From positions 225,669-289,668 of the forward strand of contig CAMDNE010000003.1 in NCBI GenBank assembly GCA_945902745.1: a stretch of DNA of 64,000 nucleotides. Reading direction: 5' to 3'. Source of the DNA: Chitinophaga pinensis (GTDB lineage: Bacteria > Bacteroidota > Bacteroidia > Flavobacteriales_D > Crocinitomicaceae). The position numbers were made by a program, and so were the translations under genes. The notes beneath the pieces are model-generated. The model saw nothing but the letters and a program-made list of their open reading frames with translations, had not been told where the DNA came from and searched no databases. Positions 3,786 to 57,004 of the stretch are shown here, in pieces (the first letter of the stretch is position 1; each line of letters opens with the position of its first letter).

Positions 3786-5114
3786 TTAATTTTTAATTAA
3801 AAGATTTCCTGTTATTTTTTTAAGTTCTAAATCTGCTTTTAGGTACTCAACGATATTCGATAAATAATTTTGTTGAGCTTCCCTTAACGAGTTGTCTGCG
3901 AGTAATACATCTGTTAAAGTTGCCGTTCCCTGTTTTTGTTGAATCACAGTTTGTTCGTAAATACTTTGAGCCAATTCAATTTGTTCAGTAGTTGTTTCAA
4001 TTGATTTCAACGTAACCTTACGTTGCAGTTTAGCATTTTGAACTTGAAGGTTATTTTGATCTGTTAGCAAAGCCAATTGAAGATCATTGTTTTGCAATTC
4101 AAGTCTTTTCTGGTTTATTTTACGAAGTGTTACCGTTCCACTAAACAAGGGATATGAAAGTTGCATCCCTGCAAAACCAATCGGATAGAACTTTAAAAAT
4201 TCATTTGGCTGTTTGTCGTATCCGAACCCTGTCGTACCAAATGTTCCAACAAGATTAAGCGACGGTAAAAACCTTGATTTATTTAACGTACTAAGTTCAC
4301 TTGATAACAAACGATTTTGAGTTGTTGTGAGGCGCATATCTAAAGTCGATGAACTCACATATTCAGTGAGCGTTTCATATTGTATTTTTGATTCAATCGA
4401 AATATTTTGCTCTATTGAAAGCCCCATTGCATATTTCAATCCATTCAAAACTTGTTCATATTTACTTGTGATGGTTACTTTTTGTGCTGTTAATTGAGCT
4501 TTTTGCAATTTCACCTTATTTACATCTGTACCTTTCGCAAGTAATTGTTCATTGAGCAGTTGAATAGTTGATAATAGCCGTTCAACATTTACAAGATTGC
4601 TATCAATAAAGCTTATTTGATGCTGTAAAATTTGTGCATTATAATATAAATTAGAAATTTCAAAATAAATTTGTTCTTCTGTTTTTAGGTACTGTATATC
4701 TGTCAATTCAGCCGCTATTTTTGTTGTTTGGATTGCGCCATAAACTTGTGGATTATATAAAGGCATTGAAACTTGTAGATTCGCATTAATGTTATGAGAA
4801 ACACCAAATTGCGCTTCTTTAAATTGACCTTCTGGACCACCAAAAATAGAAAGAGGCATTAGTTGATAAGGCAAATTTGTATAATACTTATAATCCGCAT
4901 TGGCCGTAATTTTCGGAATTAAATTAGCTTTTGCTTCGAGCTCTTTTTGCTTTCCAATAGAAATGGAGTTTCTACTCATTTGAAGGTTTTTGTTGTGGAC
5001 TTGAGCTGTGTCAATACACTGTTGCAATGTATAAACCTGAGCTTGAGCAGAATTTAATCCTAATAATGTTAAAAACAGGATTACGTATTGTTTGTGAATG
5101 TTTACTAACTTCAT
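3786..5114 (-). CDS. TolC-family outer membrane efflux protein
   Basis: Signal peptide, YTLQQCIDTAQVHNKNLQMSRN start and long heptad-rich helices; operon position with MFP and RND. Confidence 0.92.
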   Translation of the reverse strand: MKLVNIHKQYVILFLTLLGLNSAQAQVYTLQQCIDTAQVHNKNLQMSRNSISIGKQKELEAKANLIPKITANADYKYYTNLPYQLMPLSIFGGPEGQFKEAQFGVSHNINANLQVSMPLYNPQVYGAIQTTKIAAELTDIQYLKTEEQIYFEISNLYYNAQILQHQISFIDSNLVNVERLLSTIQLLNEQLLAKGTDVNKVKLQKAQLTAQKVTITSKYEQVLNGLKYAMGLSIEQNISIESKIQYETLTEYVSSSTLDMRLTTTQNRLLSSELSTLNKSRFLPSLNLVGTFGTTGFGYDKQPNEFLKFYPIGFAGMQLSYPLFSGTVTLRKINQKRLELQNNDLQLALLTDQNNLQVQNAKLQRKVTLKSIETTTEQIELAQSIYEQTVIQQKQGTATLTDVLLADNSLREAQQNYLSNIVEYLKADLELKKITGNLLIKN

Positions 5115-55515: not shown

Positions 55516-55580
55516 GCCACAGATGCACAGATTTTATTTTTTTCAATAAGAATAATAAAGTAATTTAATTTGTGCATCAC
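55516..55580. repeat. Type-1 MITE-like element, truncated at its right end
   Basis: GCCACAGATGCACAGATTTTATTTTTTTCAATAAGAATAATAAAGTAATTTAATTTGTGCATC: right inverted end loses TGTGGC where a type-2 element abuts. Confidence 0.75.
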
Positions 55581-55719
55581 CGCTCCGCAGCAGTTAAACT
55601 GCTGCGGCATGAATGGTTTTCAAAATTCTGAAAAACATAAAAGTATTCAGAACTGAAATTTTTCAATGAAATAGCATACCTTTAAAACATAGGCCGCAGC
55701 AGTGCAACTGCAGCAGAGC
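55581..55719. repeat. Type-2 palindromic intergenic element, copy A
   Basis: CGCTCCGCAGCAGTTAAACTGCTGCGG ... GGCCGCAGCAGTGCAACTGCAGCAGAGC; each end can form a hairpin and the two ends are inverted relative to each other. Confidence 0.85.
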
Positions 55720-55744
55720 AAAGAATTAGAAAAAAAATAAAATA

Positions 55745-55813
55745 GCCACAGATTCACAGATTTTATTTTTTTCAATAAGAATAATAAAGTAATTTAATCT
55801 GTACATCAGTGGC
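55745..55813. repeat. Type-1 MITE-like element, full length
   Basis: GCCACAGATTCACAGATT ... AATCTGTACATCAGTGGC, 69 bp with terminal inverted repeats. Confidence 0.85.
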
Positions 55814-55969
55814 AGATAAAACACCTTACAGTGCCATGTTAGGCTAATTTAGAGGAGCGCATGGAAATCTATATATTAAAATTGGAGTGGCGATAAACGC
55901 AAATAAAAATATAACTTTGAATTACTTATTTTAATGAATTAGATTTGGAATAAATTATATCCTTTAATC

Positions 55970-56548
55970 ATGACAAAATTAATATCTCTTTTATTTTTTT
56001 CTTTAATTTTTAATAGTATTTCATTTTCTCAGATACCTTCTAATTCTAGTATTTTCGCAAAACTATATAGCAAGGATTTAACGTTAAGTATGGCGAAGAT
56101 TTATCTAGTAGAAAATATCATAACCCTTGGGGATATTGAAGAAAAATTAGTCATAGATGGATTAAGCGCTGCAAGTTCGGGAGAATTAACTGCTTTATGC
56201 TATTCTGGAGACTCTTCCAAAACAAAAGGATTATTACTTGCTTTTTACGGAAATTACTGGAACGATCAAGGAGTTACTTACCAAGGTTACGCCTTTAGAA
56301 ACTTTAAAGAAAAAAATGGAATTGAGGTACTAGAAAAAATTGTTGCCATTTCTGATAGAAATCAAAGTTTCATGGGAAAAAGTTTTGATAATAATAATAT
56401 TGTGTTCACTTACGAAGATATTGTTTTTATCATGTATATAAATGGACCAACCAAAATAAGAGTTTTATGGGACAATTTTGATGCAGAATGGACAATTGAA
56501 GAAGCTAAAAAAACACTAAAAAGATTACAGGAATTTATTGGTAATTAA
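55970..56548 (+). CDS. Secreted hypothetical protein
   Basis: 192 aa with signal peptide MTKLISLLFFSLIFNSISFSQ; no recognised domain. Confidence 0.65.
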   Translation: MTKLISLLFFSLIFNSISFSQIPSNSSIFAKLYSKDLTLSMAKIYLVENIITLGDIEEKLVIDGLSAASSGELTALCYSGDSSKTKGLLLAFYGNYWNDQGVTYQGYAFRNFKEKNGIEVLEKIVAISDRNQSFMGKSFDNNNIVFTYEDIVFIMYINGPTKIRVLWDNFDAEWTIEEAKKTLKRLQEFIGN

Positions 56549-56557
56549 CGCTACTTC

Positions 56558-56695
56558 CGCTCCGCAGCAGTTGCACTGCTGCGGTATGAATGGTTTTCAA
56601 AATTCTGAAAAACATAAAAGTATTCAGAACTGAAATTTTTCTATGAAATAGTATACCTATAAAACATAGGCCGCAGCAGTGCAACTGCAACGGAG
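56558..56695. repeat. Type-2 palindromic intergenic element, copy B
   Basis: CGCTCCGCAGCAGTTGCACTGCTGCGG ... CCGCAGCAGTGCAACTGCAACGGAG; interior almost identical to copy A. Confidence 0.88.
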
Positions 56696-56719
56696 TATTG
56701 AGAATTAGAAAAAAAAATA

Positions 56720-56846
56720 GCCACAGATTCACAGATTTTATTTTTTCAATAAAGCAATTACCAACTTATCAATAGTCGGCCACAGCAGTAAAACTGCAGC
56801 GGAGCATGGGGATATATTAAAGTAATCTAATCTGTGCATCTGTGGC
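56720..56846. repeat. Type-1 element interrupted by a fragment containing a type-2 end
   Basis: GCCACAGATTCACAGATTTTATTTTTTCAATAA ... [GGCCACAGCAGTAAAACTGCAGCGGAGC at 56778-56804] ... AATCTGTGCATCTGTGGC; about 58 bp longer than the 69-bp copy. Confidence 0.75.
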
Positions 56847-56861
56847 AAATAACATACCTGC

Positions 56862-57004
56862 CCCGCTCCTCTAGAGTTGAACTGCTAAAGTATAAATAGC
56901 TTTAAAATTCTGAAATACACTATTTTATCAAGAACTGAAAATTTTCTATGAAGTAGTATAATACTTATTAAAAGTTGGCCGCAGCAGTGCAACTTCAGCG
57001 GAGC
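56862..57004. repeat. Type-2 palindromic intergenic element, degenerate copy C
   Basis: CCGCTCCTCTAGAGTTGAACTGCTAAAGTATAAATAGCTTTAAAATTCTGAAA ... GGCCGCAGCAGTGCAACTTCAGCGGAGC. Confidence 0.75.

Follow-up and report, generated by a model that had tools for sequence, protein, structure and literature searches.

Between positions 55516 and 57004 of the window (the whole stretch of 64,000 nucleotides analysed here) lie copies of two families of short palindromic elements, T1 and T2, together with an ORF of 192 aa. Both families had been described in an original prediction made from the letters of the window, and direct reading combined with a repeat search finds them in the same places. The features are listed below; palindromic elements are given without a strand.

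55516–55579, no strand: T1 copy a, its right arm cut after AATTTGTGCATCA, at the start of T2 copy a
55582–55719, no strand: T2 copy a, a REPIN of 138 bp with two inverted REP hairpins and an AT-rich spacer
55745–55813, no strand: T1 copy b, complete at 69 bp, with a degenerate right arm (2 mismatches)
55970–56548, + strand: ORF of 192 aa with a signal-like N-terminus, between two T2-containing 161-bp direct repeats
56559–56696, no strand: T2 copy b, a REPIN of 138 bp, 94% identical to copy a
56720–56846, no strand: T1 copy c, 127 bp, with perfect arms and an interior split by ~58 bp
56780–56805, no strand: lone T2 REP hairpin within T1 copy c
56865–57004, no strand: T2 copy c, diverged

The junction at which T1 gives way to T2 was borne out at 55579–55581, and the T1 copy at 56720–56846 is indeed split by ~58 bp that carry a T2 end, the hairpin at 56780–56805. 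Because the missing end of T1 copy a was not found beyond T2 copy a, the 55579–55581 junction is not a simple insertion. The length of 69 bp proposed for an intact T1 holds for 55745–55813 and fails as a fixed size, since copies elsewhere measure 41–145 bp. Similarly, the nesting of the two families is real in that a T2 hairpin lies inside a T1, but the relatives and the local duplication described below make an insertion of T2 into T1 too simple an account. As single strands, both elements fold more stably than their shuffles (z = −4.9 for T1, −10.2 for T2 and −9.2 for a 42-bp T1 on contig C4). Rfam gave only sub-threshold matches of T1 and T2 to eukaryotic miRNA hairpins, which we take as chance hairpins, and PADLOC gave no match. 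The 192-aa ORF is without a family match and was not found in 15 congeners.

The array in related genomes

At the window locus, the relative G137 has one T1 and a T2 remnant, and the relative G037 has a T2 without T1. The T1 interior in G137 (L282, 2021–2088) is the reverse complement of that in the window copies (55516–55813); thus, the interior has presumably been turned round within its arms, unless two copies were acquired in opposing orientations. T2 copy c together with the hairpin that follows it finds its best match in the single T2 of G037, and the repeat search detects the 161-bp direct repeat within the array. The nested T1–T2 array arose by local duplication; one old copy each of T1 and T2, standing side by side, would have been multiplied jointly, which would produce the nested look.

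ORFs whose starts resemble secretion signals stand between T2 hairpins at two sites, namely the 192-aa ORF of the window and a leucine-rich-repeat-like ORF of 242 aa (L329, 1252–1977). Relatives lack each of them at the corresponding site, which hints at gene cassettes bracketed by REPs. Palindromes within palindromes recur in g11, a genus of the same family, as a different palindrome (GGCGACTGGTAAGCGCC and its relatives) lies between T1 arms or next to them at 12 of the 16 loci examined there, compared with 0 of 113 control stretches. We considered these inner palindromes as REPs of a RAYT and set the idea aside, as they were not found near the Y1 genes of g11. At L407, L408 and L417, the same intergenic sites of g11 are taken up by yet another palindrome family, of the CCTCCTTGAGGAGGG type.

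T2 and the resident RAYT

As the original prediction had stated for transposases, no cognate gene for T1 or T2 was found in the window. The RAYT gene whose existence it had raised is present elsewhere in the genome, on contig C28, with T2 hairpins on both sides. A Y1_Tnp search of the genome returned four genes, and C28:19114–19689 encodes a REP-associated tyrosine transposase (RAYT/TnpAREP; NCBIfam NF047646, 91.3 bits against a cut-off of 80). Its motifs NHLH, WQ, YIHxNP and SS are those of TnpAREP subclass 2.6, which according to PMC6006769 occurs mostly in Bacteroidetes and has atypical flanking structures that are also found at other genomic sites. A candidate for the GTAG/GGAG foot that such enzymes recognise is the GGAG at the stem edge of ...GCGGAGC in T2, to be read alongside the description of subclass 2.6 structures as atypical (PMC6006769).

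T2 hairpins beside the RAYT gene are both single and arranged as inverted pairs (L060: hairpins at 3917–4036, 4708–4733 and 4821–4918 around the RAYT ORF at 4115–4690). Inverted pairs are dispersed over contigs C17, C9, C8 and C2 and the window, and T2 ends recur on these contigs and on C28. T2 is non-autonomous and palindromic, as the earlier description had it, and it is also intergenic and multicopy. The C28 island is absent in G137; in G037, the hairpins are kept and the gene is gone. Together, the RAYT match, the subclass 2.6 motifs and the T2 hairpins flanking the gene identify T2 as an ordinary REP doublet (REPIN) of the genome's own C28 RAYT. By extension from work on other RAYTs, the C28 protein would also move T2, and this HUH enzyme would have dispersed it as in other REPtrons.

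T1 and the GxxExxY gene family

The arm of T1 (GCCACAGATKCACAGATT...inverted for the whole element) has 66 matches with at most 2 mismatches in the 3.46-Mb genome versus 0 for the reversed pattern, so its recurrence is not due to chance. A genome-wide search yielded ~31 paired copies of 41–145 bp with fixed ends. T1 is non-autonomous and palindromic, as the earlier view had it, and it is also multicopy and intergenic. The arms are fixed as GCCACAGAT[GT]CACAGATT and each contains two CACAGAT units (general unit consensus CRCDDAK), while the interiors of ~5–109 nt are unrelated between loci apart from local duplicates. Most T1 loci found in close relatives are common to this genome, which argues that T1 is not moving fast. 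A third repeat of ~175 bp adjoins T1 at L066 (2672–2846) and also lies near T1 at L271, L273 and L084, and L068 (1030–1389) is a head-to-tail array in which four T1 left arms recur at 94-bp intervals, accompanied by a single right arm.

Only one T1 pair in the genome is widely spaced (499 bp), and it holds a complete gene. Its perfect 21-nt arms, with GGCCACAGATGCACAGATTTT on both sides, bracket an ORF at G000:C24:3149–3646 (L340) that matches the GxxExxY family (TIGR04256/PF13366, PDDEXK_3) at 141 bits against a cut-off of 35. Gene and arms form one unit, and in this genome gene-less arm pairs outnumber the gene-bearing one. The T1–GxxExxY adjacency recurs in other taxa (L163, L191, L211, L253, L257, L448 and L449). 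In a scan for the complete T1 palindrome with one genome per species, which gave at least 119 stretches, all five GxxExxY genes present in the stretches lay within 52 nt of T1. The GxxExxY profile search was run on these stretches together with further flank loci, and its five matches had T1 palindromes or arrays on one or both sides. Clustering of all ORFs in 119 stretches among the matches listed revealed no other gene family that always adjoins T1; recurrent clusters scatter.

The association is also seen when GxxExxY genes are taken as the starting point. An inverted repeat scoring above 20 shuffles was present in the flanks of 38 of the first 63 GxxExxY genes, drawn from the phylum and from those genomes of the family that bear T1, compared with 14 of 200 control ORFs. 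CRCDDAK units stood inverted on both sides of 101 of 136 GxxExxY genes (74%) versus 11 of 269 control ORFs (4%; Fisher 2e-51), a rate that may be raised by the inclusion of genomes picked for T1; in the other 35 genes, one or both flanks had no recognisable units. Plasmid-borne GxxExxY genes in Treponema, Fusobacteriota and Gemmatirosa have the same kind of unit beside them, and no GxxExxY match was found in phages. On a Fusobacteriota plasmid (L520, GxxExxY at 492–866), copies of a AATCCGTG-containing unit are direct rather than inverted around the gene.

Among the matches listed, T1 occurs in Flavobacterium, Sediminibacterium, Chitinophaga, Pedobacter, Saprospiraceae, Bacteroidales and Ignavibacteria and, within Proteobacteria, in Methylobacter, other Methylococcales, Nitrotoga and Limnohabitans. 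Because many T1-bearing genomes are MAGs, binning errors could account for isolated unexpected placements; the contig with the Methylobacter copy is 2.4 Mb long. Of 26 genomes selected because they bear T1, 24 encode GxxExxY, versus 101 of 198 genomes sampled from the phylum, and MAG incompleteness or loss would account for the two T1-bearing genomes without a match. Several Bacteroidota share a T1 form of 90–99 bp (L153, L184, L186, L207, L222 and L227) with an inner hairpin resembling AAACTACCTTTGGTAGTTT, that is, a conserved interior.

The arm units vary, with CACAGAT, CACAGAG, CGCAAAG, CACATAG and others seen, and they do so along with the protein. Pairs of proteins from different genomes that have the same unit are 51% identical versus 40% for other pairs (permutation p 0.0005). 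In 31 of 76 cases, against a shuffled mean of 6.7, a protein has the same arm unit as its closest relative from a different genome, and the figure is 19 against 6.9 after exclusion of relatives with >60% identity. On the protein tree, the CACAGAT label requires 9 changes versus 14.5 when shuffled (0/500), and a single supported set of 24 takes in 11 of the 15 CACAGAT-armed proteins. A Bacteroidales MAG encodes a T1-armed protein with 67% identity to the T1-armed one of this genome, compared with 27–33% in alignment between the latter and its three GxxExxY siblings in the genome, which have other or no recognisable arms. On these comparisons, the arm unit tracks the GxxExxY protein lineage, as is known of REPs with their RAYTs.

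By fold, the small protein is a PD-(D/E)XK nuclease with a D...ExK core, given that D71, E81, K83 and Q95 are invariant in 56 GxxExxY sequences, that the structure model is confident (pLDDT 95) and that the Foldseek matches include Cas4 as the best PDB entry (4ic1, E 5.6e-5) as well as lambda-type exonucleases and Holliday resolvases. It would presumably be enzymatically active.

Congeners differ in whether they carry GxxExxY genes. A search of G037, G137 and g11 found absences but no clean empty site with exact T1 or GxxExxY boundaries; the intergenic flanks of g11 are too diverged for exact boundaries, and in the window's genus the tract that differs is always longer than T1. An 8-bp repeat bordering a 378-bp tract at L079 was rejected as a target-site duplication, as T1 is internal to the tract and a slippage deletion in the relatives fits equally well. 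Where G010 has a GxxExxY gene, the relative G133 has a T1-like palindrome that lacks a gene and encloses a second palindrome (L415, 375–520).

Interpretation of T1 and comparison with known systems

In view of the observed structure, the adjacency, the covariation of arms and protein and the presence or absence between species, we regard T1 as very probably a GxxExxY element that lacks the gene. The full element would consist of inverted arms of repeated seven-base units (CRCDDAK) bracketing the GxxExxY gene. That the nuclease itself moves T1 is plausible, if somewhat short of probable; it may recognise the arms extruded as a hairpin or cruciform and nick or resolve them, so that arms would spread with or without the gene. 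If, as we infer, the arms alone have to be present in cis, the interiors would be expected to be unrelated. Taken jointly, T2 as the REPIN of the C28 RAYT, T1 as the gene-less GxxExxY element and the array as a product of local duplication make a probable account of the locus.

The main alternative is that the arms are cis-regulatory hairpins of GxxExxY, such as bidirectional terminators or attenuators, and that T1 is the residue of gene loss without active mobilisation. The arms often lie within tens of nucleotides of the ORF, T-runs follow some T1 copies and most T1 loci change little among close species, all of which would suit a regulatory role. We nevertheless consider it unlikely, because the genome has ~31 T1 pairs against one gene-bearing copy, because identical arms with unrelated interiors occur across phyla and because arrays of gene-less palindromes adjoin GxxExxY genes. 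It is quite improbable that GxxExxY genes and CRCDDAK palindromes are unrelated and simply gather in the same permissive intergenic sites; one g11 site does hold a GxxExxY element, a T1-like palindrome or other sequence in three different species, but the tight spacing of the units, their inversion on both sides of the gene and the covariation of unit type with protein lineage argue against shared hot spots.

The remaining explanations invoke a transposase. T1 is palindromic, intergenic, paired and multicopy, as REPs are, and the original prediction had offered a RAYT as its possible partner. However, none of 34 Y1 transposase genes had T1 beside it (four in this genome and 30 in relatives, most of them T1-bearing, within 1.5 kb in the relatives), and no RAYT-like gene adjoins T1 in 80 named loci, the single match lying 4.4 kb from T1. 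Derivation of T1 from an unseen or lost RAYT, or from the genome's IS200-like Y1 transposases, is thus refuted for the genomes tested and very improbable overall, and the partner of T1 is instead the GxxExxY gene. The suggestion of a MITE-like element likewise failed for T1. Its short, dispersed copies with terminal inverted repeats recall the MITEs of DDE transposases, but interiors are shared in local duplicates only, the flanks of ~120 T1 copies contain no constant target-site duplication and no transposase cluster recurs beside T1 among the matches listed. T1 is not a classical MITE, and a DDE origin is the least credible of these explanations.

The reading of T1 as a gene-less GxxExxY element would matter beyond this locus. 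The GxxExxY family, to which the gene between the T1 arms belongs, is common in the phylum yet annotated only as a protein family, with no known role. Mentions of GxxExxY or PF13366 in open-access papers are apparently incidental, the papers searched describe neither arms around the gene nor derivatives without it, and a text search of papers for T1 arm sequences and other arm units returned nothing relevant. A recognisable arm code around the gene points to a testable function, in which the nuclease would act on the palindromes that belong to it, and gene-less arm pairs across phyla are orphan repeats that would gain a parent. More tentatively, GxxExxY with CRCDDAK arms might make up a class of mobile element that is pan-bacterial and has so far gone unrecognised; its Cas4-like PD-(D/E)XK nuclease would spread self-complementary arms with or without its own gene, and the 'CACAGAG / CGCAAAG / CACGGAT' intergenic repeats common in many genomes would be gene-less offspring.

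Among known systems, T2 resembles the REPtrons of RAYT/TnpAREP subclass 2.6 in its HUH Y1 protein with NHxH, WQ, YIHxNP and SS motifs, in the hairpins around the gene and in the paired hairpins dispersed genome-wide. T1 shares with MITEs a short, non-autonomous form with terminal inverted repeats but differs in having no shared interior, fixed target-site duplication or DDE partner. TIRtrons also carry a small gene inside long terminal inverted repeats and have gene-less repeat families (Di Nocera et al. 2013, PMC3733652), although their TIRYTs are Y1 tyrosine transposases, beside which no T1 was found. T1 is like REPtrons in that palindromes flank a gene, gene-less palindromes are in excess and the palindrome follows the protein lineage, whereas its partner is a predicted PD-(D/E)XK nuclease rather than an HUH enzyme and its arms are tandem seven-base units. 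If this interpretation is correct, T1 and GxxExxY would represent a second, independent solution to genome colonisation of the REP/RAYT type.
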